Assembly: GCA_020693165.1 (NCBI GenBank)
Contig: JAIMJQ010000014.1
Location: forward strand, 1-42,668
DNA: 42,668 nucleotides
Direction of reading: 5' to 3'
From: Xanthomonas sp.
Lineage (GTDB): Bacteria > Pseudomonadota > Gammaproteobacteria > Xanthomonadales > SZUA-5
The notes beneath the pieces are model-generated. The model did not search any database. It saw only the letters and a program-made list of their open reading frames with translations, and had not been told where the DNA came from. Positions 3,446-32,247 of the stretch are shown piece after piece. A program made the position numbers and the translations under genes. Every line of letters begins with the position of its first letter. The first letter of the stretch is position 1.

Positions 3446-4374
3446 GCGCGGCTTACTCCGAGCAAACGCAGGGCTTCGTCGGCATCGCGACGAATCTGCT
3501 CAACGAGGGAATCAAGGTCGGGAAAATGCCATTCGTCCCGCTGCTTCGCAATGAAGTCGATAGTGAGGCGTTTTCCGTAGAGGTCGCCATCGAATTCGAA
3601 CAGATGGACTTCCAGCAGCAATTCCTTGCCGCCAACTGCGGGTCGGTAGCCAAGACTGGCCACGCCCGGGTGCTGCGTCAGGCCGGCGCCATCGACGCGC
3701 ACCGCGAAGATGCCACCGAAGCCCAGTGAGTTCTGCGGCCAGCGCAGATTGGCCGTGGGGAAGCCGAGCTGACGGCCGAGTTGCTGGCCGCGTACGACCC
3801 GCCCGGAATAGCTGTAGCGACGTCCGAGCGCATGTCCGGCGGCATCGAAGTCCGATGCCAGCAGCATCTCGCGAATGCGCGAGCTGCTGACGCGCTCGCC
3901 GTCGGCGGTCAGCGCCGCAATCTCGCGCGCCTCAAATCCAAAGCGCGCGCCTGCCGACTGCAGAACTTCGAGGTTGCCGGCGCGGTCGTGTCCGAAGCGG
4001 AACCCGGGCCCGACCCAGACCTCGCGCGCGCACATCCGACGCACCAGCACCTGCTCGATGAAGGAATCAGCGGAGGTCTGCGCCAGCGCGTGATCGAAGC
4101 GCAGGCTCAGCACACGTTCGATGCCGACGTCGCGGATGCGCACGGCGCGTTCGCGAAACGGGGTCAGGCGCAGCAGCGGAGCGCGCGCAAAGTGCTGCCG
4201 TGGCAAAGGTTCGAAGGTAACCACGACTGCCGGCAGACCGAGCGCATGGGCACGCGCGCGCAACTGCGTCAGCAGTGCCCGATGGCCGATATGGACACCA
4301 TCGAAAGCACCGATCGCAACCACGCTGCCGGCTGCGGTCAGCGGCGGTCCGTTACTGTCTCGACTGAGAATCAT
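3442..4374 (-). CDS. ribF: Bifunctional riboflavin kinase / FAD synthetase
   Basis: The enzyme phosphorylates riboflavin to FMN and adenylylates FMN to FAD. Its N-terminal nucleotidyltransferase domain shows GAFDGVHIGHRALL (HxGH-type motif), and the C-terminal riboflavin kinase domain shows GRQLGFPTANL. The ATG at 4374 gives 310 residues, close to the family length. The track start is a TTG at 4389, five codons earlier; neither start has a clear Shine-Dalgarno, and the ATG fits the conserved N-terminus better. The gene lies between murJ and ileS, the usual order in this order of bacteria, and overlaps ileS by 4 nt. About 170 nt separate it from the murJ stop. Confidence 0.96.
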   Translation of the reverse strand: MILSRDSNGPPLTAAGSVVAIGAFDGVHIGHRALLTQLRARAHALGLPAVVVTFEPLPRQHFARAPLLRLTPFRERAVRIRDVGIERVLSLRFDHALAQTSADSFIEQVLVRRMCAREVWVGPGFRFGHDRAGNLEVLQSAGARFGFEAREIAALTADGERVSSSRIREMLLASDFDAAGHALGRRYSYSGRVVRGQQLGRQLGFPTANLRWPQNSLGFGGIFAVRVDGAGLTQHPGVASLGYRPAVGGKELLLEVHLFEFDGDLYGKRLTIDFIAKQRDEWHFPDLDSLVEQIRRDADEALRLLGVSRA

Positions 4375-8770: not shown

Positions 8771-9145
8771 ATGGAGAAGCCACTGGACATGGGCCACGTG
8801 ATCCTCGACCGCCGCCAGGAACCGCGCTTCGAACTGCCCGGCCGTTTCCGCTGCATTGCGCCTGCCGGCCTCAACGGGCGGGTGGTCGACTTGTCTTTGA
8901 ACGGCGCGCTGCTCGAATCCGATGCCGAGCCGACCTGCCACGGCGGCGAAGTGATCGATCTACTGCTGGAGTTGGACGAGACCCGCCCGTTCGCGGCCAA
9001 GGCCCGCGTGGCGCATGTCCGTGGCCAGCGCATCGGCATCGAGTTCCACGAGATCGAACCGCCCGCGTTCGAGCAGTTGTCGGAACTGGTGCTGTCGCTC
9101 AAGCGGGCACCAACCCTGGCAAAGCTGTCGGTGGACCCGTCCTGA
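8771..9145 (+). CDS. PilZ domain protein
   Basis: This is a single-domain protein of 124 residues with both halves of the cyclic di-GMP binding signature: RRQEPRF (RxxxR type, about residues 15-21) and DLSLNGALLES (DxSxxG type, about residues 40-50). Such stand-alone PilZ proteins act as c-di-GMP receptors, often for motility, type IV pili or exopolysaccharide. No signal peptide or membrane segment is visible. It stands alone between rplU (divergent) and deaD (convergent). A diguanylate cyclase lies 8 kb away, but no direct link can be shown. Confidence 0.85.
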   Translation: MEKPLDMGHVILDRRQEPRFELPGRFRCIAPAGLNGRVVDLSLNGALLESDAEPTCHGGEVIDLLLELDETRPFAAKARVAHVRGQRIGIEFHEIEPPAFEQLSELVLSLKRAPTLAKLSVDPS

Positions 9146-17100: not shown

Positions 17101-18000
17101 TCAGGCGTCGCTGTCGACAACCCGGTTGCGGCCGCCGAGTTTGGCCTTGTACAGCACGCCATCGGCCTCGCGCAGCAGATCCGCCGCCGTGCGCATATCG
17201 GGCGACTGGTCGGCGATGCCGATGCTCACGGTCACACGCACCGCAACGCCGGCATCGGTCGGGAACGCCGCTCGTTCCAGCGCCTCGCGAATGCGCTCGG
17301 CCAAGGCCCGGAATTCGGCGGCCGACTGCTGCGCGCTGAAAATCACGAATTCCTCGCCGCCGAGCCGTCCGGCGACTGTGTCGGCTCCGATGATCCCCTT
17401 GACCAAGGTGGAGAAGCCGGCGAGGACGCGGTCTCCGGCAAGATGGCCATGGCTGTCGTTGACCGGCTTGAAGTGGTCGAGGTCGAGGATCATCAGGCGC
17501 AAACACCCCGGCTGGCCGCGACCGCGATCGAAGGCATGTTCAAGCATCTCGCGCGACTGGCGGCGGTTGTAGAAACCGGTCAGCGCGTCGAACACGGCGT
17601 TGTTCAGCAATTCGCGATGGTAGTTTGCCTCGGCGCTTCCCTCGCCGAAGAACTTGAGCTCGCACTGACCGATGCGCAGGCGGTCACCATCGCGCAGGCC
17701 GAGGCGCTGCACCGGCTCGCCGTTGACGAAGCAGCCATTGGTGGAGCCCAGGTCCTCGACTGAATAGCCGCTGCCGTCACGAAAGATCCGGCAATGGTGC
17801 CGCGACACGCTGGTGTTGCTGAGCACCAGGCCACAGTCGTCGGCACGACCAACCATCAGCGGATTCTCGTCGATGCGCGCCTCGAGTCCCAGCTGCGCGC
17901 CATTGACCACGACCACGCAAGCCGATTCGCGCCGCTCCTGCGGCCCTGCCGGAACGACAACCCGGGTCGTGGTATGTGGCGCTTTGCGGCGTGCGGCCAT
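17101..18000 (-). CDS. FHA-GGDEF protein, putative diguanylate cyclase
   Basis: The 299-residue soluble protein has an N-terminal FHA domain (about 45-115; VGR, SVSRHH, DLGSTNGCFVNG), which binds phosphothreonine peptides, and a C-terminal GGDEF domain (about 135-295; FDALTGFYNRR, LDLDHFKPVND). The active-site loop is RLGGEEF (213-217), which permits c-di-GMP synthesis. No RxxD inhibitory site is seen before the loop, so product inhibition may be absent. I choose the ATG at 18000; the track start at 18045 lies within the upstream gene. The start is 7 nt after the stop of the 3599-residue secreted protein, so the two are very probably co-transcribed and translationally coupled. Confidence 0.9.
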   Translation of the reverse strand: MAARRKAPHTTTRVVVPAGPQERRESACVVVVNGAQLGLEARIDENPLMVGRADDCGLVLSNTSVSRHHCRIFRDGSGYSVEDLGSTNGCFVNGEPVQRLGLRDGDRLRIGQCELKFFGEGSAEANYHRELLNNAVFDALTGFYNRRQSREMLEHAFDRGRGQPGCLRLMILDLDHFKPVNDSHGHLAGDRVLAGFSTLVKGIIGADTVAGRLGGEEFVIFSAQQSAAEFRALAERIREALERAAFPTDAGVAVRVTVSIGIADQSPDMRTAADLLREADGVLYKAKLGGRNRVVDSDA

Positions 18001-18007
18001 CGCTGGC

Positions 18008-21000
18008 TTACTCGTCCTCGGTCTCGAATCCCTCGCCGAACACACCGATCTCGTCGACGTCGACGCTCTGGTTGTTGCCCGGGACCGGATCCGGCGCGTT
18101 GGCGGGCGGCGTCACCGTCGCGATGTTGGTCACCACCTGCTCCGGCGCGATCTGCGCGGTGGCGGTCAGCGCAAAGGTAACGGAGGAACCCGCTGCAAGG
18201 CGCACCAGAGTGTCAACGGTGCCCGTGCCCGCCGCCGGACAGCTGGCGCCGGAACTGGCGGTGCAGGTCCAGCTGGCGTCGCTGAATTGCGGCGGCAGGA
18301 TGTCGGACACGCGCGCGTTCACCACATCCTGCGGCCCGGCATTGGTCACCAGCAGGATATACGTCGACGCCTGGCCACCCGGCACCAGGCGCAAGCCATT
18401 GCGCTTGACGATCGCGAGGTCGGCGCCGTCGGCGGCGAACAGGTGCTGCTCGGTAGCGATGCTCGCGTCGAAGTTGGCGTCGCCGAGATAACGGGCCTCC
18501 AGCAGCACCTGTCCGACCGCCTTGGCGAGCAACTCGCAACTCAGGTTCGGCAGCGTGATGCCGCAACTGGCGATACCGTCGGTGACCAGGATTTCGCCGC
18601 TCGGAACGCCGGCGCCGGGCGCAATCACGTCGAGCGCGATGGTCACCATGACCGGGGCACCGACGGCGGACGGATCCGGTGTATCGCTGACGATCGCGAT
18701 CGCGGTGGCGGCGCGCTCGACCACGTGCGCAACCGACGCCGACTGGCTCGGCGCGTACGCACCTGCCCCCAGATAAGTGGCGCGCACGGCCGTGGTGAGC
18801 GCGCTGTTCGCGACCAGTTGGCAACTGGATGCGCTGGCGAGATCGATCGCGCAAACGCTGCCGTCGCTCAACTGGCGAACCTCCACGGTACCGGTGGTGA
18901 GCGCGGACACGCCGTCCGACACGCTTACGGAGACCACGTAGGGCTGGCCGACCACGCTGACGGCAGGAACAATGCTGTCGATCGCAGTCGTCGTGGCCAG
19001 TACGCCATTGGTCAGCGCGAACGTCGGTGCTCCGGTCGCACCGGATGCCGCGGCAGTCACGCTGTAACTGCCGACGATGGCGTTGGCGGTCGCCGTCGCA
19101 CTTGCCTGCGACCCGGCGATGATCGCCGGGCCGGAAAGCGTTGCCGAGGCGCCTGCGCCCGGCGCCGAGTACGTCACCCGCCCCCCGTCCACCGGCTCGC
19201 CGGCGAAGTTCGGCGCGACGCCGACGACCAGCGGCGAGGCGAACGGCGCGTTCACCGGCGTCGTCTGCGGCGTCCCGCTGACCAGCGACAACACGAAGCC
19301 CTGCGACTCGAAGGCGCCGACATCCACCGTGCCCTGCTGCGGGCGGGCGACGCCGCGCTGGTCGGCATTGGTCGCCAGGCCATTGCTGCCGGCATCGATC
19401 GCCGGGCTGCCGGGCAGCAGTGCCCGCGTCAGCGTGCCGCCGCCGTAGTCGGATAGCGAAGCCAGCAATGGATCGTTGATGCCGATCTGGTTGCCGTTGA
19501 CGCCATTGGCGAGGCCGCCGCCGACGCCGATCAGGTTGAACGAACTGCCCGCATCGAGCGTGCCTTCGATATCGTTGGCAACGCCGCCGACCAGATTGCC
19601 GGACACGATGGTGTTGCGCAGCACGGTGACATGGGTGCCGCCAAACGGGCGGTGCCAGATCGCGCCGTTGCCGCCGACAGCGGTCGTGGTGTTGCCGCTG
19701 ATGGTCACGTTGGTGAGGGTCGTTGTCAGCGTGGTTCCGGCCTGAGGCTCCACGCGAATGGCTGAATTGGCGCTGCTGGTGCTGTTGCCGCTGATGGTGA
19801 CATTGGTCAGCTGCGCAATGCCGACACCCCGAACTGCAGTCGGCCGCGGCCCGCTGCTCGCGGCCAGCCGCAGCGCCTCGCCTTCGCTGCCGCTGTTGCC
19901 GCTCAGCGAGGAATCGACCATGGTCAGGCTGCCATCCTGCAGGTAGATGCCGCCGACGTTGTTGCAGGTGTTCCCGGTCACGCTGACGCGGGTTGCAGTG
20001 AGCGTGCCGAAGGTCACCGCCAGCGCGCCGCCGGTGCCCGCCGCGGAGCAACTGTTGCTGCCGAGCACGACGTCGGTCAGGGTCAGATTGCCCGCCGTAT
20101 GCAGGATTGCGCCGCCGACCCCCGGGCTCACGGCACCCGTCGAGTTGCCGCCGGTCAGCGCCAGGTTCGCGAGCGTCAGGTCGACTCCGCTGGCGTACAG
20201 GATGCGCGACGCGTTGTTGCCGGAAATGACCAGTAGCGCGGCCGGGCCGTTGATGGTGAGGTTCTGGGTCACCAACAGCTCGCCAGCCGTCAGCGTGATC
20301 GTGCGCGGCACGTTGAACACCGCCGGATCGAAGGTGACGTCGGGCGCCAGCGTCGAATTTGCCAGCGCAATGGCTTCGCGCAGGGTGCATTCGGCGAGAT
20401 CGCAGGTGCCGTTGCCGGGATCGGCCGTCGAGTTCACGATCGGCAGCGCGGCCGCGATGTAGCTGAAGTCGTCGGCCGTGGTGTCGGCGCTGGTGCCCGC
20501 AGCCGTCGTTGCGGACACGCTGATGAGGCCGGTGCCCGCAGGGCTGGTCGCCTCGCACAAAGTGGTGGTGGCGCAGTTGACCGCGGTCGCCGGCGTCGCA
20601 CCGAAACTCACCGAGGTGGCGCCGATCGCGAAATCGGTGCCGTTCAGGGTCACCACGGTGCCGCCGGCTTCCGGGCCCGAGGCCGGACTGATCGACGTGA
20701 TCGCCGGGGCGCAGCCGAGGCTGAGCAGGATCGCGACGTCGGCCGAGAACTCGTTGGCGGTCGCGATGTCGGTTCGCCCATCGCCGTCGAAGTCGGCGAA
20801 GGCGACGCTGCTCGGCCCGTTGCCGACGTTGAAATTGCTCGGCACGCCGAATGCGCCGGCACCGCTGCCGAGCAGCAGCGAGACATTGTTGCTGCCGGCG
20901 TTCGCGACCACCAGGTCGATGTCGCCGTCGCCGTCGAAGTCGCCCGCATCGATGCCCCCGGGCTGCGTACCTGCCGGATAGCTGGTCGCCATCGCAAACG

Positions 21001-24000
21001 TGCCGTCGCCCGCACCCAGCAGCACCGAGAGGTTGTCGGAACCCCGATTGGCTACCACCAGATCGCTGATGCCGTCGTTGTTGAAGTCGGCAATGGCGAG
21101 GTCGCGCGGGTTGCTGCCGACGGCGTACTGGCTCGCGGAACCGAAACTGCCGTCGCCGGCGCCGAGCAGCACCGACGCCGAGTTCAATGTCACATTGCCG
21201 ATGGCGAAGTCGCTGCGACCGTCGCGATCGAAATCGCCGACGCCGACCGAAACCGAGCGCAGACCAGCGGTGACGCTGGGTGAGCCGAAAGTGCCGTCGC
21301 CATTGCCGAGCAGGATGGCGACGCTGTCGGCATCCAGCAGCACCACCGCGAGATCGGCGCGGCCATCGGCGTTGAAGTCGCCAACCGCGACGCCGTGCGG
21401 GCCGAGGCCCGCGCTCACCGACGTCGCGGCGCCAAAGGTGCCGCTGCCGGTCCCGAGCAGGATCGACACGTCGGTCGCCCCGTAGTTGGCGGCGACCAGG
21501 TCCTGGTTGCCATCGCCGTTGAAGTCGCCGACCGCCAGCGCGCGCGGGAATGCGCCGACCGGGTAGTCGACCGCCGCGGCGAACGACCCGGTGCCGTCGC
21601 CCAGCAGCACCGATATGCTGCCGATCGACACTGAATTGACCACCGCGAGATCGCGATAGCCGTCGCCGTTGAAATCGCCGAGTGCGAGGTCGCGCGGCTG
21701 GGAGCCGGTGGCGAACAGTGCCGGCGCGGCGAAATTGGTACACGCGGTGGTGGCGACATAGGCGAAGTCGTCCGCCAGCGTGTCGACGCTGGTGCCATCG
21801 ACGGTGGTCACGCGCACGTTGACCGTTCCGCTGCCGGCGGGGACGGTTGCGGTGCATTCGGTCGTCGAGGTGCAATTGACGACCGGTGCCTGGATCGCGC
21901 CGAACGCCACCGCGGTCGAACCGATGACGAAGTTGGAGCCGGTCAGCGTGACCACGGTGCCGCCGACCATCGGTCCGCTGGACGGGCTGATCTGGGTCAG
22001 CACCGGCGGCATGGGCGCGGCGCTGATCAGCACCAAGTCGTTGCCGCTGCTGTTGCTGAACGGCCGCGCCGGCGGCGTTTCCGGCGTGTAGCTGGCGGTC
22101 AGCGAGCGCGCGCCGGCCGGCGCCAGTGCATTCAGTTGACAGCTGCCGCCGGAGAGTCCGGGGCTGATCTCGCTCAGGGTCGCGACGCAGGATTCGCCGG
22201 CGCCGTCATCGATGTCGACCGATCCGAGTGCACTGAACGGCTCGGCGACGGCAACCTGCACCGTCGCCGTGTACGGCGTGCCGATGGTGGCGTCGGGGGC
22301 GCTGACGGTGGTCGTCGTCGCATAGAAGCTGGCCTCGGAACTCTTGCCGAAGCTGTCGGTGACGATGCCGAGCACGATGTCGTCGGGTGCGACGGTGACG
22401 CCACCCGGGAAGGCGAAACTGGCCGGGCAGTTGATGCCCGGCGCGGTACAGGTGGTCGTGCCCAGCCACACTCCGGGTTCGTCCTCGACCGACTTGTAGA
22501 AGTCGACGCGTGCCGGATAGTTGCCGCCGATGTCGGGGGTGTCGAGGACGACGTCGATGATTGCGGAGTTGCCGCCGGGCGCGGAATAGCTGGTGAAGGT
22601 CGGGAAGTTCAGGCGACCATTGGGGCCTGCATCGGCGTCGCCGACGTCGTTCGCAGTGCGTCCGTCGCCACCCAGATCGATGCCCAACTGGCCATTGAGA
22701 TAGATGTCGTTGCGCACGAACGACGCCCGACCGATGCCGCCGAAACTGGCGAGGATGCCATTGCCCCCGTTGAAGGCAATGCGATTGCCCTCACCGGGAT
22801 TGCCCCCGCCGACCCGGACCAGACCGCTATCCATCGCCGACAGGTTGACGCCGTTGCCAAGGTTGCCGAGAGCACTGCCGTCGGCCGCGGGCCCGATGAA
22901 ATTGCCGAGAATGCGGGTCCCGTCAAAGCAATTTCCGGCAATCGCGGCGCAATCGAAGCGGATGCCATCCTGGCCATTGCCGCTGATCACGTTGCGATGG
23001 TCCGGCTGATCGCCGCCGATGATGACGTTGGTGATTTCCGACGAGGTGGTCAGCAGGATGCCTTGCTGGCCATTCGGACGCGCCGACAGCCCATCGGCGC
23101 TGGTGCCGATCAGGTTGCCGCGCACCGCCAACCCGGCCAGCAGCGGAATCGACTGGATCGAAATGCCCTGATTGAGGTTGCCGCTGATGACGTTGGTCGC
23201 CTCCGGAAACGCCGGATCGCCGACAAGGACGCTGCCGCCCTGGATGGAAATGCCGACGGTATTGCCTTGCGGCGCGACGCTGCCATCGGCGCGCAGCCCG
23301 ATGAAGTTGCCGGAAATCCGGTAGCTGGCGTCGCCCGGGCCGAAGGTGACGATGCCACCGCAGAAGTGATGGATGGAAAGCCCGGCAATCTCCACGATCT
23401 GTCCCGGCGCATTGATCACCAGGCCGTCGCCACAGAACTCCGGCACCAGACTGCCGTCGAGCTCGATCTTGAGCGTGGCATTGCTGCCGAGACCGAGCGA
23501 GGGTGCCTGCGAGTTCGGCACGGCGCCGCTCTGGCTGTAACCGTCGATCAGGATCGGCGTCGTGATCTGCGGCAGCAAGGCCAGCGGAGCGATCACACAG
23601 GCACCCCCGGGGCCGGTGCATTGCGGCGCCGGAATATCGAAGGCGATGACGTCCGGGTCCGGCAACGCGTTGGCAGCGATCAGCGCATCGCGCAGCGTGC
23701 ATTCGCCGACGTCGCAGATGCCGTCGCCGGCGTCGCCGACGCTGTTGACGACCAGCGGGCCGCCACCCGGAACCAGCGCCGCAGTATTGGCATCGTAGGT
23801 CACTGCGTAGCCTGGATAGGCAATGTTGGTGACCGCGAAAGTCCCGCTCAGGCCGGTGTCGCTGTTGAGAAAATTGAGCGTGTCGGGCGCCGTCATCGGA
23901 TAGCCGGCATTGAGGACGTTCAATATGCCATCGATGTTGGCGGCACCGCTGACAAACAGGAAATCGGAATTGATGCCCGGCGACAAGCCGCCGACTTCGA

Positions 24001-27000
24001 TGTCGAGGATGCCGGCAGCGCCCTGGGTGTAGGTCCCGAAGATGTCGATCTGTCCCGGCGAGGCGCCCGGCTGTACACGGCCGGCGACATTGTCGACGTT
24101 GCCGTTGATCTGGCCGTCGGCGCGCAGAATGCCGCCGTTGAGCAGCACCGGGTCCGCATTCAGCGTTGAGTTGTTGCGGATCTGGATCAAGCCACTGGCG
24201 AGTGTGATCGCAGGCGTGGTCAGGTTGAAATTGTCGACCAGCACGGTCCCGCCGTTGATTGCCAGCGGCGCCGACAGCTCGAAAATGGCGCCATCCCCGA
24301 GTAACCGCAAGCTGCCCTCGATCTCCATTTCCGCCGTACAGGCGGGTGCGGAACAGCGATAGCGCACCGCCGACTTGATATTCGTGGTCTGCAGATCGGC
24401 GCCGGCTGCGACGACGATCCGTGCCGAATCGCCGGTCGGAACTTCGACGAAACCGCCACTCCAATCGGCCGTGCCTTCGATGCGCAGTACACGATTGGAC
24501 AGGGTGCAGAGGCCAAAGCACATCTGCACCAGCGCGCCGGGTTGGATCACCACCGGTCCGGGAGACACGCCAACCGACGCCAGCACGCCGCCACTGCGCC
24601 AGTCGAAATAGGTGCCGATGCGAACCTCGGCATTGCCGGTCAGCGTGCCGTTCTGCAAGAACAGCGTCTGGATGGTCTGCGGCGATGCCGAGTCGATGCG
24701 CACCACGCCGCCGGATTCGATGCGCAGGTCGTGCGGCGCGAATCCGCCATTGGTAGTCACCGCGGCGCTGTTGATCACCCGCACGCCGCCGGCCCCGGAA
24801 ACGTCGGAACCCGGACCCATCGTGCGCGCGGCGGCGTCGAAATACAGCAGGCTGCCGGCTTCGACGCCGTAGGTGCCGACGTCGTTGCCGTCGCCGCGCA
24901 CGCGCAGCTCGCCGTCGATCAGCTGTACGCTGCCGAAGTTGTCGAACGCCACATCAACATCGGCGAGGGCACCGCCCTGCACGCTCAAGCTGCCGTTGTT
25001 GACCAGTCGCGACGTCACCGGCGTGTTGGAGGTTACGCTGCGGGGACCGCTGCCGCCGAGGATCAGCTGGCCGCCAAGTTCGTTGTCGAACTGGCCACCG
25101 TCGTTGATCTCGGTGGCGTTCGGCGCGATCCAGTCGATCGTGCCGTCATTGCGCAAACGGCGGTTGCTCAAGATGCGCGGCACCGACGGTCCCAGCGGCG
25201 CATCGAATTGCGCGACCGCGGCGGGCGCGATCTCGAAGGTCTGGCCGAGGCCGGTGCCACGGATGGTCCCGTGGCCCCATCCGAAGTTCCCGGTGACGCG
25301 AATCGCGCTGCTGCCTTCGAGCACGGCGAGCGGTTCGGTCATCAGCAGGCCGTCCAGATCAGACGGGCTGGCGCAGTTCAGCACCAGCTCGGCATTGCGA
25401 ACGATGACCGTCGATGCGCTGCCGATGCAGGCATCGACGGTGTTGATGCCGACCGGACCACTGTCGCCGAACACCAGGTTGCCGCCGGCGAGCGTGGCAG
25501 ACAGTCCGAAGCTGCGGTCGCCCCCGACAAAGTGCAATGTGGCGCCAGCGGCGGCGGTGTAGCTGCCATCCAGAGGCATCGCGGCAGTCGCGGCGAAAAT
25601 GAATTCGCCCGCATTCACATCGATGGCGCCGACGCCGCTGTATTCGACGCTGTCGCCGATTCCAGCCGAGTTGACACCGATCTTGACGATCATGCCGTCA
25701 TTGCGAACCTCGGCGGTCCCGGTTCCGCTGCCGAAAATGCTCTCGAATGCGAGGCTGGGGTTGCTGTTGAGTACCCCGATGGACGAGATCTGGAGTACGC
25801 CAGCATTCGCCAGCTCGATCAGGCCGGTGCTCCAGTTCGCCGTCGCATCCAGTACAAAGGTGCGGCCATCGATGGTGTGTTGACCGCCCGACAAGTTGCC
25901 CAGCGCGCCCGAGGACAGCGTGACCTGAGTGCCGCTCGGACCCTGGAAGCTGCCGCCGGTCCAGATCAGTTGGTTGCTGATGGTGAGGTCGTTGGCGCCG
26001 CCGATGAGGCCGCCGGTGAACTGCAGTTCCCCGACCGTTACCGGCGTATCCAGATTGACGCTGCCGCTGCTGACGATCGCCGTATCGCTGGGACCCGGCA
26101 CACTGCCGCCGCAGGTGTCCCACTTGCTGGCATTGCTCCAGTCGTCCAGTCCAACGCCGCCGGGGTTCCAGATGCAACCGCCACCGGCCAGCGCTGCCAA
26201 CCGGACCCGGGTGGCCTCGATCTGCAGGTTGAGACCGGCGCCGTTAAAGGCATTCAGCCCGACGCTGACGCTGCCGCTGCGCGCGGCGTACAACATCAGA
26301 TCGAAGACCTCGCTGCCGTCCGCGATGTAGCCGAGGTCGGACACATTCACCGTTCCGTCGAGCGATGCACCGCCGGAAATGGTCAGTCGATCATAAGAGG
26401 GCACGCCTTCGGGCTGGGACGCGCGGTCGCCGAGCTTCGGCGCGGCTGGCGGTGTAGTGCCGGCGATACCGAACTCGTAGACCGTGCTCGGGGTTGCCGT
26501 GAAGTTGCCGAGAACGCCGAGATTTCCCGCCGACACGCCTGCTGGCTCGATGGACACCGCATCGACATCGAGATTGGCTTCGATGACACCGGCGCCGCGA
26601 AGGCTGCCAGCCTGCAGCACCAGATTACTGGACGAACGCCGCACGCCGGCTCCGGCAAACACCTCCAGGACCGAACCCGGCTGCGCCGTATAGGCGCTCT
26701 CCAACCGCAGCAAGCCATTGTCGACGCGCAACGCGCCCTGGTTGACGACGGCAATGGTGGGGCCCAGCTGGGTGGGCGGGCCCGCGAGCATGCTCACCGA
26801 CTGGATGGCGCCAATGCTGCTGTTGGTGAGCGTGCCACAAGGCGGCAGCGCATCGCAGCCGATGGCGCCGGCGACCACTGGCGAGCCCAGCAGGTTCAAC
26901 AGGCTGTTGTTCTGAATCTGGGCGTCGCCGGCGAACTCCAGCGGCACGCTGAGGTTGAGATCGCCGTCATTGATCAGGCTGCGCGCGAACAAGGACGGCC

Positions 27001-28807
27001 CATCAGTCGGGTCGTCGCTGGTCTGCAAGGTCGCGCCGGAGGCGACCGAGACCGTTTCCGAAGGACCGCTGCCTTCGATCAGTCCACGCCAGGTAGCGAT
27101 GCCGGTGAATGTGATCGCGGCCGGCCCGAACAATGTGGCGGTTTTATCGATGATCAGGTTCTGGAAACTGCGCGACGCACCGTCGATGCGCACCGATCCG
27201 CCCAGTTGCAACGCGGTGCCGCCAATCGGGTCGAGCACTGCGCTGGCCTCCAGCGCCCGCGTGGTACCGATTCGCGGGTTGAACCAAAGGGTGCAGCTGC
27301 CGGCATAGCGCCAAGTCCCGGCATCGGTTCCGGGCGCCCCGATCGCGCCGCACCCGGCGGTGAGTTCCACCAGCCCGGCATTGTCGAAGGCGGCGAGGTC
27401 GCTGCCGATGGCGACGATGCCTTGCTGGTCGATCAGGGTCAGCGAGGCACCCGAGCGGTTGAAGAAACTGCCGCAATCGGTCGACTGACAATCCAGCCGC
27501 AGGTTCTGATCGGTGGTGCTGTTGTTGTCGATCGTGAAACTGCCCTGATTGTCGATGCTGGCGGCATCCAGCCACAAATGCGTGATTACGCCGGCGCTGG
27601 CAGCGAGCGTGACGCTGCCCTGGTTGATCAGGTCGCGCGATCGCAGGTAGGCAGCCGGGCGGACGTCGTCGAGGGAAATCGTGGTGATCGCGCTCACCGG
27701 CAGCGTCAGCGTCACTCCAGGGCTGGTGCCGTTGATCTCGCCACCGGCCCAATTCAGCGTGCCGGTCACAATCAGGTTATCGGGGCTGCTCAAGGTTCCG
27801 GGCGCCTGCACGCGCACGCTCGGCAGGCTCAGCGGATCTGCCGGCGTATCCAGAAACAGCACGCCATCGACCACTTCAGTGGAACCGGTCAGCAGATAAC
27901 CGCCGGTGATGCTGAGGGTGCCCTCGTCGAACTTGTGCAGGGTGCCGCTGCCGGAAATTGCGCTGCCGCCGGTGAGGGTACGGGTGATGCCGAACTCGGG
28001 TGCGAATTCCAGCCGCGCGATCGGCGCGACCTGATAGGCGCCGAAATCGCCGCCGGGTCCGTTGATCTGCAGCGTGCCGTCGTTGACCAGCACATCGTTG
28101 CCGTTGTCGAAGGTCACGTTGCTGGCAAATATCACGCGCTGGTCGCCGAGCTTCTCGATACGCGCACCCGGCGTTGATGAATTGTGGATGCGTGCGAGCG
28201 GACTGAAATCGCCGCGCAGTTCCAGCGGGAAGCTGCCACCGGAATAGTTGATGGTGATTTGGCCCTGGTTGTCGATCTCGGCATCCGTGCGCAGCTCGAT
28301 GTCGCCGTCGACCCAGGTGAGCGCGCCCAGGATGCGCAGATCGCGGCCGGACAGCACGTGCACACTGGTTCCGGAAATGTCGGAAATCGAGGCACTGTCG
28401 AGCAGCAGTTGCGTCGCCACTCCCCCACCGTCGATGGTGCCGCCGGTCCAGCTCAGGGCCGAAGTCACGGCGATGTCGGCGTCGCCCAAGATGCGCCCGG
28501 CGCTGAGTGTCAGCCGATCGATGGTGTGCGCACTGGCACCCACGTCGACCTCGGCGAGCGGCGTGATATTGCCGATCACCGCATGGTCGGCCGGCCCGGG
28601 CGTGCCGGTCGGAGTGCCATTGCCGGAGGCACAACTGTTCCAGTTCGCCGGGTCGTCCCATTGCCCGGGACCGTCCTGGTTCCAGAAACACGTCTCCTGC
28701 GACCACGCCGGCGCGCCGCTCAAGAGCATGAGCACTGCCAGGGCTGCGATCCATCCCCTGTGACGCGTGGCGGCGCCAATGACCGTGCGATCCCGGTGTT
28801 CGAGCAT
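18008..28807 (-). CDS. Giant secreted mosaic protein (beta-helix, IPT, FG-GAP, DUF11)
   Basis: This predicted secreted protein has 3599 residues; its function is not known, and surface adhesion or polysaccharide binding are guesses. Signal peptide about 1-36 (IAALAVLMLLSGAPAWS). Two large beta-strand-rich units follow, each opening with a C-x-W-N...W motif (about 40 and 878) and closing with a PATR-like tail (about 743-870 and 1565-1640). Next come a CSLREA segment (about 1685) with parallel beta-helix repeats (to about 2060), an IPT domain (about 2267-2355), seven FG-GAP repeats (about 2358-2703), a second IPT domain, a second CSLREA segment (about 2786) with a choice-of-anchor-Q-like region ending VDVGAFES, Ig-like repeats, DUF11 (about 3460-3573) and the tail VFGEGFETEDE. 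No beta-barrel or LPXTG anchor is seen. AGGGGA precedes the ATG. Confidence 0.93.
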   Translation of the reverse strand: MLEHRDRTVIGAATRHRGWIAALAVLMLLSGAPAWSQETCFWNQDGPGQWDDPANWNSCASGNGTPTGTPGPADHAVIGNITPLAEVDVGASAHTIDRLTLSAGRILGDADIAVTSALSWTGGTIDGGGVATQLLLDSASISDISGTSVHVLSGRDLRILGALTWVDGDIELRTDAEIDNQGQITINYSGGSFPLELRGDFSPLARIHNSSTPGARIEKLGDQRVIFASNVTFDNGNDVLVNDGTLQINGPGGDFGAYQVAPIARLEFAPEFGITRTLTGGSAISGSGTLHKFDEGTLSITGGYLLTGSTEVVDGVLFLDTPADPLSLPSVRVQAPGTLSSPDNLIVTGTLNWAGGEINGTSPGVTLTLPVSAITTISLDDVRPAAYLRSRDLINQGSVTLAASAGVITHLWLDAASIDNQGSFTIDNNSTTDQNLRLDCQSTDCGSFFNRSGASLTLIDQQGIVAIGSDLAAFDNAGLVELTAGCGAIGAPGTDAGTWRYAGSCTLWFNPRIGTTRALEASAVLDPIGGTALQLGGSVRIDGASRSFQNLIIDKTATLFGPAAITFTGIATWRGLIEGSGPSETVSVASGATLQTSDDPTDGPSLFARSLINDGDLNLSVPLEFAGDAQIQNNSLLNLLGSPVVAGAIGCDALPPCGTLTNSSIGAIQSVSMLAGPPTQLGPTIAVVNQGALRVDNGLLRLESAYTAQPGSVLEVFAGAGVRRSSSNLVLQAGSLRGAGVIEANLDVDAVSIEPAGVSAGNLGVLGNFTATPSTVYEFGIAGTTPPAAPKLGDRASQPEGVPSYDRLTISGGASLDGTVNVSDLGYIADGSEVFDLMLYAARSGSVSVGLNAFNGAGLNLQIEATRVRLAALAGGGCIWNPGGVGLDDWSNASKWDTCGGSVPGPSDTAIVSSGSVNLDTPVTVGELQFTGGLIGGANDLTISNQLIWTGGSFQGPSGTQVTLSSGALGNLSGGQHTIDGRTFVLDATANWSTGLIELANAGVLQISSIGVLNSNPSLAFESIFGSGTGTAEVRNDGMIVKIGVNSAGIGDSVEYSGVGAIDVNAGEFIFAATAAMPLDGSYTAAAGATLHFVGGDRSFGLSATLAGGNLVFGDSGPVGINTVDACIGSASTVIVRNAELVLNCASPSDLDGLLMTEPLAVLEGSSAIRVTGNFGWGHGTIRGTGLGQTFEIAPAAVAQFDAPLGPSVPRILSNRRLRNDGTIDWIAPNATEINDGGQFDNELGGQLILGGSGPRSVTSNTPVTSRLVNNGSLSVQGGALADVDVAFDNFGSVQLIDGELRVRGDGNDVGTYGVEAGSLLYFDAAARTMGPGSDVSGAGGVRVINSAAVTTNGGFAPHDLRIESGGVVRIDSASPQTIQTLFLQNGTLTGNAEVRIGTYFDWRSGGVLASVGVSPGPVVIQPGALVQMCFGLCTLSNRVLRIEGTADWSGGFVEVPTGDSARIVVAAGADLQTTNIKSAVRYRCSAPACTAEMEIEGSLRLLGDGAIFELSAPLAINGGTVLVDNFNLTTPAITLASGLIQIRNNSTLNADPVLLNGGILRADGQINGNVDNVAGRVQPGASPGQIDIFGTYTQGAAGILDIEVGGLSPGINSDFLFVSGAANIDGILNVLNAGYPMTAPDTLNFLNSDTGLSGTFAVTNIAYPGYAVTYDANTAALVPGGGPLVVNSVGDAGDGICDVGECTLRDALIAANALPDPDVIAFDIPAPQCTGPGGACVIAPLALLPQITTPILIDGYSQSGAVPNSQAPSLGLGSNATLKIELDGSLVPEFCGDGLVINAPGQIVEIAGLSIHHFCGGIVTFGPGDASYRISGNFIGLRADGSVAPQGNTVGISIQGGSVLVGDPAFPEATNVISGNLNQGISIQSIPLLAGLAVRGNLIGTSADGLSARPNGQQGILLTTSSEITNVIIGGDQPDHRNVISGNGQDGIRFDCAAIAGNCFDGTRILGNFIGPAADGSALGNLGNGVNLSAMDSGLVRVGGGNPGEGNRIAFNGGNGILASFGGIGRASFVRNDIYLNGQLGIDLGGDGRTANDVGDADAGPNGRLNFPTFTSYSAPGGNSAIIDVVLDTPDIGGNYPARVDFYKSVEDEPGVWLGTTTCTAPGINCPASFAFPGGVTVAPDDIVLGIVTDSFGKSSEASFYATTTTVSAPDATIGTPYTATVQVAVAEPFSALGSVDIDDGAGESCVATLSEISPGLSGGSCQLNALAPAGARSLTASYTPETPPARPFSNSSGNDLVLISAAPMPPVLTQISPSSGPMVGGTVVTLTGSNFVIGSTAVAFGAIQAPVVNCTSTTECTATVPAGSGTVNVRVTTVDGTSVDTLADDFAYVATTACTNFAAPALFATGSQPRDLALGDFNGDGYRDLAVVNSVSIGSISVLLGDGTGSFAAAVDYPVGAFPRALAVGDFNGDGNQDLVAANYGATDVSILLGTGSGTFGAATSVSAGLGPHGVAVGDFNADGRADLAVVLLDADSVAILLGNGDGTFGSPSVTAGLRSVSVGVGDFDRDGRSDFAIGNVTLNSASVLLGAGDGSFGSASQYAVGSNPRDLAIADFNNDGISDLVVANRGSDNLSVLLGAGDGTFAMATSYPAGTQPGGIDAGDFDGDGDIDLVVANAGSNNVSLLLGSGAGAFGVPSNFNVGNGPSSVAFADFDGDGRTDIATANEFSADVAILLSLGCAPAITSISPASGPEAGGTVVTLNGTDFAIGATSVSFGATPATAVNCATTTLCEATSPAGTGLISVSATTAAGTSADTTADDFSYIAAALPIVNSTADPGNGTCDLAECTLREAIALANSTLAPDVTFDPAVFNVPRTITLTAGELLVTQNLTINGPAALLVISGNNASRILYASGVDLTLANLALTGGNSTGAVSPGVGGAILHTAGNLTLTDVVLGSNSCSAAGTGGALAVTFGTLTATRVSVTGNTCNNVGGIYLQDGSLTMVDSSLSGNSGSEGEALRLAASSGPRPTAVRGVGIAQLTNVTISGNSTSSANSAIRVEPQAGTTLTTTLTNVTISGNTTTAVGGNGAIWHRPFGGTHVTVLRNTIVSGNLVGGVANDIEGTLDAGSSFNLIGVGGGLANGVNGNQIGINDPLLASLSDYGGGTLTRALLPGSPAIDAGSNGLATNADQRGVARPQQGTVDVGAFESQGFVLSLVSGTPQTTPVNAPFASPLVVGVAPNFAGEPVDGGRVTYSAPGAGASATLSGPAIIAGSQASATATANAIVGSYSVTAAASGATGAPTFALTNGVLATTTAIDSIVPAVSVVGQPYVVSVSVSDGVSALTTGTVEVRQLSDGSVCAIDLASASSCQLVANSALTTAVRATYLGAGAYAPSQSASVAHVVERAATAIAIVSDTPDPSAVGAPVMVTIALDVIAPGAGVPSGEILVTDGIASCGITLPNLSCELLAKAVGQVLLEARYLGDANFDASIATEQHLFAADGADLAIVKRNGLRLVPGGQASTYILLVTNAGPQDVVNARVSDILPPQFSDASWTCTASSGASCPAAGTGTVDTLVRLAAGSSVTFALTATAQIAPEQVVTNIATVTPPANAPDPVPGNNQSVDVDEIGVFGEGFETEDE

Positions 28808-28871: not shown

Positions 28872-28922
28872 GTGGTGCGCGCGCCGAGTTCGCCGACTGC
28901 GATCGATTCAGGTCTTTGAACG

Positions 28923-28954
28923 CACGAAGGCCGGCGCAAGGGCCGGCCTTCGTG
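28923..28954 (-). terminator. Strong hairpin after the prc gene
   Basis: CACGAAGGCCGGC and GCCGGCCTTCGTG form a perfect 13-bp stem with a 6-nt loop. It lies 40 nt past the protease stop. Neither side has a real T run, so termination may be weak. It lies between the protease gene and the giant protein gene, both on the minus strand. Confidence 0.55.
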
Positions 28955-28994
28955 TGAAGCTCTGAGACGTTTGCCCGCTCGGGCGCCGCGCCAG

Positions 28995-31157
28995 TCAGGA
29001 ACCGGGCGGCGGCGGCAGTGCGCTGCCCGACTGTTTCGGGGCAATTTCGGCAATGCGCGGATTGTCCTGCATCAAGTCGATCGCATCGGCGAGCACGCGC
29101 GCACCCTCGGTCAGCAGCACGTCCGGCTTGTCCTTGGCCTTGTCCTCGTCCGCCGCAGCCGCGATGGCGCCGCGCTCGCCCGGGTTGAGTCCGTCGTCGA
29201 GCACATCCGCCAACTCCGGCTCCACCTCGCCGCGCGCCTTCGCCCGCGCCGCGATGCGCGCTTCGTCGGCCTTGCGCTCGGCCTCGCGCTTGGCGTAGCT
29301 GAGCGAAATCGACTTGCGATCACGCGACTCGCGGTACTGCGCGATGTCCTCCTTGATGAAGGCGAACTCCCGGTCTGCCGCCACGCGCGACTCGTGGCGA
29401 CTCGTCAGCAACGGCACCAGACGGTCGAAACTGCCGACCGGCGCGTAGCTGGCTGCCGCGATCTTGGTCCACGGCAGCGCATTGTCATAGGTCGATTCGC
29501 CATAGTCGGTCGAGTCCAGCGTCGCCGGGAACGGCAAGTCCGGCACCACGCCCTTGTGTTGGGTGGAACCACCGTCGACGCGGAAGAATTGCGCCATGGT
29601 CAGCTTCAACTGTCCGAGCTGCGCCGAATCCTTGTTGGCAATGTAGTCGAGATCGACCAGTTGCTGCACCGTGCCCTTGCCGAAGGTCGGCTCGCCGATG
29701 ACGATGCCGCGCCCATAGTCCTGGATCGCCGCCGCGAAAATCTCCGATGCCGACGCCGAAGCGCGATTGACCATGACGGCCAGCGGGCCGTCGTACTCGA
29801 CCCCGCGCGCGGTGTCGGCCTCGACCTGGACCCGGCCGCGACCGTCGCGCACCTGGACCACCGGTCCCTGGTCGATGAACAAACCGGTGAGTTCGGTGGC
29901 TTCAGTCAACGAGCCGCCACCGTTGTTGCGCAAATCGATCAAGATGCCGTCGACGCCCTCCTCGGCAAGTTCGTCGAGCAGCTTGCGTACGTCGCGCGTC
30001 GAGCTGCGGTAATCCAGGTCGCCGCGCGCGCGCCCGGCAAAATCGAGGTAGAACGCCGGCAGCTCGATCACGCCGATCTTGCGCGGGTTGGCGCCGTCAC
30101 TCTCGATCACCCGCTTTTTCGCCGCCTGCTCCTCGAGCTTGACTTTGTCGCGGACAATCTCGACCAGCGCGGTGTTGCCACCGATGCTTGATTCGGCAGC
30201 AAGGACTTCGAGTTTGACCACCGTGTCCTTGGGGCCGCGAATCAGATCGACCACGTCCTCCAGCCGCCAGCCGACGACATCGGTCAGCTGCTTGTCCTTG
30301 GCCTGCCCAACGGCGACGATGCGGTCGCCCACCTTGACCTTGCCGCCCATCGCCGCCGGACCGCCCTCGACTACCGAACGGATGACGACGAACTCGCCCT
30401 CGCGCTGCAGCACCGCGCCGATGCCTTCCAGCGACAGCCGCATCGAAATCTGGAAATTCTCGCTGGCGCGCGGACCGAGGTAATTGGTGTGCGGCTCGAT
30501 TGCCATCGCGTAGGCATTCAGGAAGGTCTGGAACACATCCTGACGGTCGAGCTGCTCGACGCGCGTCAGATAGTCGGCGTAGCGCTTGTCCAGCGTTTCG
30601 GCGATCTTGGCGTCGTCGCGATTGGCCAACTTCAGGCGCAGCCAGTCGTTCTTGACGCGCTGGCGCCAGTGTTCGTCGAGCGCGGCCTTGTCGGTCGCCC
30701 ACGGCACGTCCTTGCGGTCGTAGACGTAATCCTCGTCGACGCTGAAGTCGAAGCCCGCCGGCAGCAGCTCGCGTGCATGGTCGGTGCGCTCGCGCAGGCG
30801 CTTCAGGTACACCTTGTAGATCGCAAATGCCGGATCCAGCTCGCGGCGCTCGATGGCCTCGTCGAGGGTGGTCGCGTAACGCTGCTCGAAGCGGTCGATG
30901 TCTGACTTGAGAAAGAACACCTTCTCGCTGTCGAGCGCGTCGACGTAGCGCTTGAGAATCTCCCGCGACATGGCGTCATCGAGCGGCTTGCTCGCATAGT
31001 GCAGGCGCGTCAGGTACTTGGACACCCAGTCGGCGGCCTCACCCTGCTCCGGCGTCGGCGTCAGGTCGGCAAGGCTGACCGTCTTCGGCTTTGCCAACAG
31101 CGGCGAGGCCACCGCCAGGGTCAACGCGATCAACAGCGCCCGATTCAACAATTTCAT
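28995..31157 (-). CDS. prc: Tail-specific protease, S41 family (Prc/CtpA)
   Basis: This periplasmic carboxy-terminal processing protease acts on proteins with non-polar C-termini and affects cell-wall hydrolase turnover. The 720-residue product starts at the ATG at 31157 (MKLLNRALLIALTLAVASPLLA, a signal peptide) with GGAG upstream; the track start at 31286 is not supported. A PDZ domain lies at about 235-320 (GIGAVLQREGEFVVIRSVVEGGPA). The S41 core carries the Ser-Lys dyad, S469 in NRASASASE and K494 in GEPTFGKGTVQ, at the same 25-residue spacing as in Escherichia coli Prc. DUF3340-like N- and C-terminal regions are consistent with Prc. It lies between lipA and the giant gene on the same strand. 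Confidence 0.94.
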   Translation of the reverse strand: MKLLNRALLIALTLAVASPLLAKPKTVSLADLTPTPEQGEAADWVSKYLTRLHYASKPLDDAMSREILKRYVDALDSEKVFFLKSDIDRFEQRYATTLDEAIERRELDPAFAIYKVYLKRLRERTDHARELLPAGFDFSVDEDYVYDRKDVPWATDKAALDEHWRQRVKNDWLRLKLANRDDAKIAETLDKRYADYLTRVEQLDRQDVFQTFLNAYAMAIEPHTNYLGPRASENFQISMRLSLEGIGAVLQREGEFVVIRSVVEGGPAAMGGKVKVGDRIVAVGQAKDKQLTDVVGWRLEDVVDLIRGPKDTVVKLEVLAAESSIGGNTALVEIVRDKVKLEEQAAKKRVIESDGANPRKIGVIELPAFYLDFAGRARGDLDYRSSTRDVRKLLDELAEEGVDGILIDLRNNGGGSLTEATELTGLFIDQGPVVQVRDGRGRVQVEADTARGVEYDGPLAVMVNRASASASEIFAAAIQDYGRGIVIGEPTFGKGTVQQLVDLDYIANKDSAQLGQLKLTMAQFFRVDGGSTQHKGVVPDLPFPATLDSTDYGESTYDNALPWTKIAAASYAPVGSFDRLVPLLTSRHESRVAADREFAFIKEDIAQYRESRDRKSISLSYAKREAERKADEARIAARAKARGEVEPELADVLDDGLNPGERGAIAAAADEDKAKDKPDVLLTEGARVLADAIDLMQDNPRIAEIAPKQSGSALPPPPGS

Positions 31158-31263
31158 CGCAGATCTCCAATCGATGACGCCAAGAGTGCGCCCGGCGACG
31201 GCATGGAACAAGTGACGGAAGTCGCCCTTTCGGCGGGGAAAACGCTGCCGCAATGCCCTGTGT

Positions 31264-32247
31264 TCATGCGCCCACGCCGGCGGCATGCGCCTGGCGGTCG
31301 GCGTGATAGGAGGACCGCACCAGCGGCCCGCTGGCGACGTGACTGAAGCCGAGGCCGTTGCCGTAAACGCGCAACTGGTCGAATTCCTCAGGGGTCCAGT
31401 AGCGGATCACCGGATGATGGTGGGCGCTGGGCTGCAGATACTGACCGATGGTCACCATATCGACATCGTGGGCACGCAGGTCGCGCAGCGCCTGCTGCAC
31501 CTGGTCCTGCGTCTCGCCGAGTCCGAGCATGATCCCGGACTTGGTCGGCACGCTCGGGTGCTGCGCCTTGAAGCGCTTCAGCAACGACAGCGACCAGTCA
31601 TAATCGGCGCCCGGACGCACCTCGCGGTAAAGCTCGCGCACGGTTTCGAGGTTGTGGTTGAACACATCCGGCGGTCCCTCGGCGAAGGCTGCCAATGCAC
31701 GCTCCATCCGACCCTTGCCCCGAAAATCGGGCGTCAGTACCTCGACCACGATTTGCGGGCTGAGTTCCCGCGTCAGGCGAATGCAGTCGACGAAATGCTG
31801 GGCACCGCCATCGCGAAGGTCGTCGCGATCGACCGAGGTGATCACCACGTAGCGCAGACCCATGTCGCGGATGGTGCGCGCCATGTTCAGCGGCTCATTG
31901 ACGTCCGGCGGCTTCGGCCGGCCGTGCGCCACGTCGCAGAACGCGCAGCGACGCGTACACACCTCGCCAAGGATCATGAAGGTGGCGGTGCCCTTGCTGA
32001 AGCACTCGTGGATGTTCGGACAGGAGGCTTCCTCGCACACGGTCACCAGCTGGTTGGCGCGCAGCGTCGCTTTCAGTCGCTCGACCGAATTGCCGCCCGG
32101 CAGCCGGACGCGGATCCAGCTCGGCTTGCGCAGCACCGGCCGGTCGGCGTCGAAGGTGACGGGATTTCGGGCGATCTTGCTCTCGCCAACCTGCTTTTCG
32201 CCGACGACCAGCGCCGGAATGATCTTGTCGCCTTGCAACTGGGGCAT
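31264..32247 (-). CDS. lipA: Lipoyl synthase
   Basis: This radical SAM enzyme inserts two sulfurs into protein-bound octanoyl groups to form lipoyl cofactors. The 327-residue product starts at the ATG at 32247. Both iron-sulfur clusters are visible: the auxiliary cluster CX4CX5C (C71, C76, C82) and the radical SAM CX3CX2C (C97, C101, C104). The C-terminal serine ligand region RSSYHAD is present. The track extends the ORF to 32508, but that part overlaps lipB out of frame. It follows lipB by 22 nt, so the pair forms an operon, as is usual. Confidence 0.97.

Follow-up and report, generated by a model that had tools for sequence, protein, structure and literature searches.

Where c-di-GMP controls a surface adhesin, the adhesin is usually linked to a gene for a receptor (LapD) or an exporter (CdrB). 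In Pseudomonas aeruginosa, the c-di-GMP-regulated β-helix adhesin CdrA is encoded in a two-gene operon, where its partner CdrB is the outer-membrane exporter (PMC2847200). The LapA/LapD/LapG retention systems (e.g., Bpf of Shewanella, PMC11395469) also connect a giant surface protein with c-di-GMP genes. Among the c-di-GMP-producing enzymes, DgcB of Bdellovibrio bacteriovorus carries an FHA domain that binds the protein's own N-terminal tail at T14, and the phosphorylated tail activates the cyclase (PMC6733907; PDB 6HBZ).

The locus described here pairs a giant exported protein with a DgcB-like diguanylate cyclase and is a variant on the known c-di-GMP/adhesin modules. It shares with CdrA a very large secreted β-helix protein (predicted, for the giant), a c-di-GMP connection and a two-gene arrangement, but the partner of the giant is a cyclase, where that of CdrA is an exporter, and no such exporter was seen adjoining the giant. 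Unlike in the Lap systems, the giant has an N-terminal Sec-type signal, and its linked gene codes for the synthesis of c-di-GMP, not for a sensor. A Lap-type adhesin system was rejected, as LapG (PF06035) was found in none of the six genomes bearing the pair, while the Caulobacter control was positive. No description of the giant–cyclase pair was found in the open-licence literature.

Layout of the locus and anatomy of the giant protein

The window, that is, the whole stretch of 42,668 nucleotides that was analyzed, is one contig (contig 31) of an uncultured gammaproteobacterium of the order Lysobacterales, whose assembly amounts to 3.0 Mb and is 77% complete. The minus-strand gene order is lipA, prc, the giant and the FHA-GGDEF cyclase, with a convergent MlaD-type/auxiliary lipoprotein operon downstream of the cyclase. 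As the original prediction had it, the giant (18008..28807) and the cyclase (17101..18000) lie on the same strand, together span 17101-28807 and are separated by 7 nt (GCCAGCG, 18001..18007), the junction reading GAG TAA GCCAGCG ATG, with the cyclase ATG at 18000. A GTG at 18045 offers an alternative cyclase start that would overlap the giant; the ATG was retained because the N-terminus is conserved in homologues.

Upstream, after lipA, prc encodes a tail-specific protease (Tsp, S41 family by domain matches; 28995..31286, minus strand) and is probably not a member of the giant–cyclase unit. Between prc and the giant, a G+C-rich hairpin of 13 bp (28900..28965, minus strand, z = −5.85) that lacks a U-tract is a possible transcription terminator; no canonical terminator came out of the consensus scan, and the promoter and terminator consensus scans were uninformative. 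The same window also holds a PilZ-domain protein (c-di-GMP receptor family) at 8771-9145, ~8 kb from the cyclase.

The giant open reading frame is considered a real gene because of its codon-position G+C (0.63/0.54/0.84) and its conservation in relatives. It encodes 3599 residues and, as claimed beforehand, has the makeup of an exported mosaic protein: FG-GAP repeats, two TIG domains, Big_3_5 Ig-like repeats, DUF11, two CSLREA-type starts and a choice-of-anchor Q domain. All of its parts given below are on the minus strand. The translation begins with a putative Sec-type signal peptide region (residues 1-36, 28700..28807) with the hydrophobic core IAALAVLMLLSGAPAWS. The first module (residues 38-876, 26180..28696) was modeled by AlphaFold2 from five homologous rows as a continuous all-β solenoid with a mean pLDDT of 90.9, and the top Foldseek matches in the PDB were the autotransporter passengers SepA, Hbp, Ag43 and Hap, with low TM-scores and borderline E-values, so that they indicate a fold class and no specific family. 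The N-terminal module is confidently predicted to be a β-helix of the autotransporter-passenger type. The second module (residues 876-1683, 23759..26182) is a divergent repeat of the first, identified by self-match and 26% identical to it in alignment, and both start with a C-x-W-N...W...P/A-x-N/K-W motif.

Beyond the two modules, a CSLREA-type start (TIGR04214 matches) is followed in the translation by a repetitive NxISGN-rich region (residues ~1685-2250, 22058..23755). Domain matches further delimit FG-GAP repeats with a TIG domain on either side (residues ~2356-2695, 20723..21742), a second CSLREA with choice-of-anchor Q (residues 2791-3169, 19301..20437) and a conserved C-terminal block of Big_3_5 Ig-like repeats and DUF11 (residues ~3270-3581, 18065..19000), which is common to every scanned cyclase-linked giant. 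Judging from its predicted β-helix and Ig-like domains, the giant is probably an adhesive surface protein.

The likeness to the autotransporter passengers lies in the predicted fold of the N-terminal module. A type Va autotransporter was ruled out, as no β-barrel translocator was matched in the giant by Pfam, the C-terminus consisting of Big_3_5, DUF11 and a short acidic tail. Two-partner secretion of the CdrA/FhaB kind was set aside, no TpsB/FhaC exporter gene adjoining the pair here (where the neighbors are prc/lipA on one side and cyclase/auxLP on the other) or in the relatives scanned. Neither an exporter, nor an anchor, nor a c-di-GMP receptor is encoded within the two-gene pair itself.

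The cyclase and its N-terminal tail

The cyclase (299 aa, DgcB-like by sequence and fold matches) has the predicted architecture, i.e., an FHA domain (17668..17853, minus strand, E = 4e-21) followed by a GGDEF domain (17122..17598, minus strand, E = 3e-38) with a GGEEF loop and GADT in place of RxxD at the I-site position. Its nearest relative in the PDB is DgcB (6hbz), at 4e-38 by sequence and 2e-23 by fold. Both proteins have the FHA-GGDEF order, a GGEEF loop, an intact phosphothreonine site in the FHA domain and a threonine in a short disordered N-terminal tail, the tail of the present cyclase being disordered in the AlphaFold model. However, DgcB is a regulator of predation with an RxxD I-site, whereas the cyclase here is genetically tied to the giant and RxxD occurs in none of the six orthologues, itself included (GADT, DKET, PPDC, TSEM, STEM and PPEA at this position). 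As RxxD is missing, we regard the cyclase as sharing the architecture of DgcB and working like it, but do not call it DgcB; the presence of RxxD is a regulatory difference and not a defining feature of the DgcB-type architecture.

The six orthologues share the N-terminal tail (T/E)TTR(V/L)(V/I)xP, which here includes TTTR (residues 10-13, 17962..17973, minus strand). In an alignment of 11 homologues, T11 is invariant, as are the residues of the FHA phosphothreonine site (G51 R52, S66 R67 H69 and T87 N88), and most relatives of the cyclase in the order have threonine-containing tails, mostly of the TT type. This conservation makes the TTTR tail a candidate phosphothreonine ligand for the FHA domain of the same protein.

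The host genome encodes at least 15 Ser/Thr kinases, as well as PilZ receptors. On contig 135, ~34 nt separate the end of a gene for a Ser/Thr kinase with TPRs (L044 5124-7787) from the start of a paralogous FHA-GGDEF gene (L044 7821-8726), and the two are likely a kinase–cyclase pair. This paralogue has RDAD at the I-site, whereas the giant-linked cyclase has no RxxD. The Ser/Thr phosphorylation input that had been proposed for the cyclase thereby gains indirect backing from the DgcB homology, the invariant tail threonine, the many kinases and the kinase/FHA-GGDEF tandem. With the DgcB analogy and the conserved residues taken together, activation through a phosphorylated tail appears somewhat favored. 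The tandem on contig 135 (L044 5124-8726) would itself be a good test bed.

Conserved adjacency and its possible explanations

To compare the pair among genomes, the cyclase was searched for in 61 genomes and the C-terminal ~370 aa of the giant in 399 genomes of the order. Five genomes contain cyclase relatives with 68-75% identity, namely G001 and G002 (same genus, g1), G004 and G007 (g3) and G005 (g4), the next-best matches among the 61 genomes being at most 50% identical. Including the present one, all six genomes, from three genera, have the orthologous cyclase directly downstream of a giant on the same strand, and the last ~370 aa of the giants upstream of the five orthologues are 54-69% identical to the reference giant. 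The intervening gap is +7 nt here, +3 in G001, +1 in G005, −4 in both G004 and G007 (ATGA overlap) and ~+204 nt in G002, so tight coupling is not universal. The homologous giants keep the β-helix modules and the Ig-DUF11 end, while the middle is exchanged by domain shuffling: the FG-GAP/TIG part is present in the reference giant and in G001 but absent from G002 and G007, the latter giant having 2322 aa and additional N-terminal Ig domains. In G001, a PilZ-domain gene is also found on the contig that bears the pair.

In the phylogenetic tree, the six giant-linked cyclases form one clade (SH-aLRT 100, stem 0.95). The cyclases of G003 and G006 group with the host's own paralogue adjoining mutS, and that of G008 stands alone on a long branch; the cyclases of a fourth genus, g2 (46-50% identity), as giant-less orthologues are unsupported by this tree. 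An FHA-GGDEF gene was seen beside mutS twice, once as the own-genome paralogue (L044 11270-15911) and once in the giant–cyclase pair of G004 (L039 8548-12008).

The surroundings of the pair differ among genera. In g1, prc lies upstream and auxLP/MCE downstream. The pair of g4 is followed by FtsJ and acyl-CoA dehydrogenase genes, and a separate contig of this genus carries prc and then the start of a giant. In g3, ankyrin-repeat genes precede the pair, mutS (G004) or superoxide dismutase (G007) follows it, and the prc and mlaD orthologues are on other contigs. As the pair is kept while its surroundings change, it moved or was retained as a unit. Adjacency in relatives had been set beforehand as the test of the proposed two-gene unit, and both adjacency and order held in 6/6 genomes with an orthologous cyclase while the flanks varied. 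Chance adjacency and the insertion of a giant into a conserved prc–cyclase pair were both rejected, the conserved neighbors being the giant and the cyclase. All six genomes are metagenome-assembled and belong to a single family, with several from the same genus, which keeps the number of independent events small.

The giant can exist without the cyclase, since g2 has a related giant (C-terminus 47% identical) after prc and before mraZ with no cyclase. This giant lies between prc and the mraZ of the cell-division cluster (L076 1-12466, L077), and its tail reads ...YCDGLEDPFSD. The search of the 399 order genomes gave 25 C-terminal matches that pass 1e-40; the six best of them are accompanied by the orthologous cyclase and the others are not, which makes the link specific to one giant subfamily. 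A GGDEF-only match in G162 (L055) is on the opposite strand, ~0.7 kb from a giant-type C-terminal match.

Because the adjacency is conserved through changed surroundings, the giant and the cyclase probably work together as a functional unit. It is rather unlikely that the cyclase is simply carried behind the giant for its expression and serves the global c-di-GMP pool with no functional tie. That reading would fit the lone g2 giant, the fact that most FHA-GGDEF relatives in the order lie apart from any giant, and the nature of the cyclase, which is soluble and has nothing to localize it to the giant; however, this clade of cyclases was never found without a giant and adjoins one in the new surroundings of g3.

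Two further explanations concern the junction and the upstream flank. The giant could be the main product, c-di-GMP being made only after the ribosome completes it and phosphorylation being secondary, as the ATGA overlap or gaps of at most 7 nt in 5/6 genomes and the Shine-Dalgarno-like GAGG inside the last codons of the giant might suggest; with such close spacing ordinary in bacterial operons and the ~204-nt gap in G002, we consider this quite improbable. Tsp proteases recognize C-terminal tails, and prc adjoins a giant in g1, g2 and g4, so prc could be the real partner, processing the C-terminal tail of the giant, with the cyclase as a later addition. Against this, the prc of g3 stands apart from any giant, the g3 pair lying elsewhere, there is a strong hairpin between prc and the giant here, and lipA-prc is a conserved pair itself that may be a mere insertion site, which leaves prc as partner a highly improbable reading.

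Returning to the giant and the cyclase as the functional unit, we infer co-transcription, phosphorylation, activation, adhesion and a c-di-GMP link to the giant, which would combine as follows. The giant, an exported β-helix/Ig surface protein, and its own cyclase would probably be translated from one message. A Ser/Thr kinase would phosphorylate the N-terminal TTTR tail of the cyclase, most likely at T11, and the FHA domain would bind this phosphothreonine, either in cis or across protomers, in the manner of Bdellovibrio DgcB; the GGEEF domains would thereby be rearranged to form an active dimer. Having no RxxD, the cyclase would not be switched off by its product at that site, and we propose that c-di-GMP would for this reason rise steeply when the giant is made, leading to surface deployment and a sessile program. 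The input side (kinase, tail and FHA) draws on a well-studied homologue and conserved residues, and surface attachment as the output is derived from the fold and the domains of the giant. As for the whole scheme, a dedicated two-gene module running from a kinase signal through c-di-GMP to the surface protein, we see the chances as evenly balanced. If true, it would wire a eukaryote-like kinase signal directly to a single surface structure in a setting other than the predation of Bdellovibrio, and a cyclase inherited with one giant would offer a clean case for the origin of signaling specificity in genomes with many cyclases.

The C-terminal F-x-D-G-F-E tail

The giant ends in the tail GVFGEGFETEDE (18011..18046, minus strand), a variant of a tag F-x-D-G-F-E recognized from homologue ends and motif scans, and the cyclase-linked giant homologues end in close variants of it. 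In four genomes of the family, F-x-(D/E)-G-(F/L)-E gave 16, 23, 27 and 21 matches vs 2, 3, 0 and 5 when the pattern was reversed, and the motif is at most 5 residues from the stop codon in 21 of the 30 loci read. Tag loci are numbered L080-L109 and L118-L146. Across 121 Lysobacterales genomes, the exact FxDGFE-stop was found in 60, with up to 36 copies per genome and, summing the table, ~460 matches in total vs 5 for the control; in the rest of the class it occurs at control level only.

The tagged proteins are unrelated to each other and include subtilase, M28 peptidase, reprolysin-like, CotH/lamin-tail, FG-GAP and choice-of-anchor D proteins. Neither Pfam nor NCBIfam has a model that extends over the extreme tail, be it that of the giant or those of ten further tagged proteins. 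PEP-CTERM, GlyGly-CTERM and T9SS sorting signals were discarded, as no curated C-terminal model matches the tail; PEP-CTERM and GlyGly-CTERM also have a transmembrane segment, whereas the F-x-D-G-F-E tag has none. FADGFE, FRDGFE, FSDGFE and FGDGFE appear in no open-licence paper, where an FxDGFE tail is likewise undescribed.

The F-x-D-G-F-E tail behaves like a sorting tag and is a candidate for an undescribed one, a lead that may open the way to an unknown protein-sorting route. One further reading, which we think unlikely, makes the locus a self-contained kinase-to-surface module: a dedicated DgcB-type cyclase, lacking the usual site of product inhibition, would gate a single giant adhesin, and a delivery system of the Lysobacterales, as yet undescribed, would recognize this adhesin by the C-terminal tag that it has in common with many unrelated secreted proteins.

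In some proteins, F-x-D-G-F-E was also found just after the N-terminal signal peptide (L086, L093; e.g., AQSQFVDGFEELND), so the tag may be borne at the N- or the C-terminus of a mature protein.
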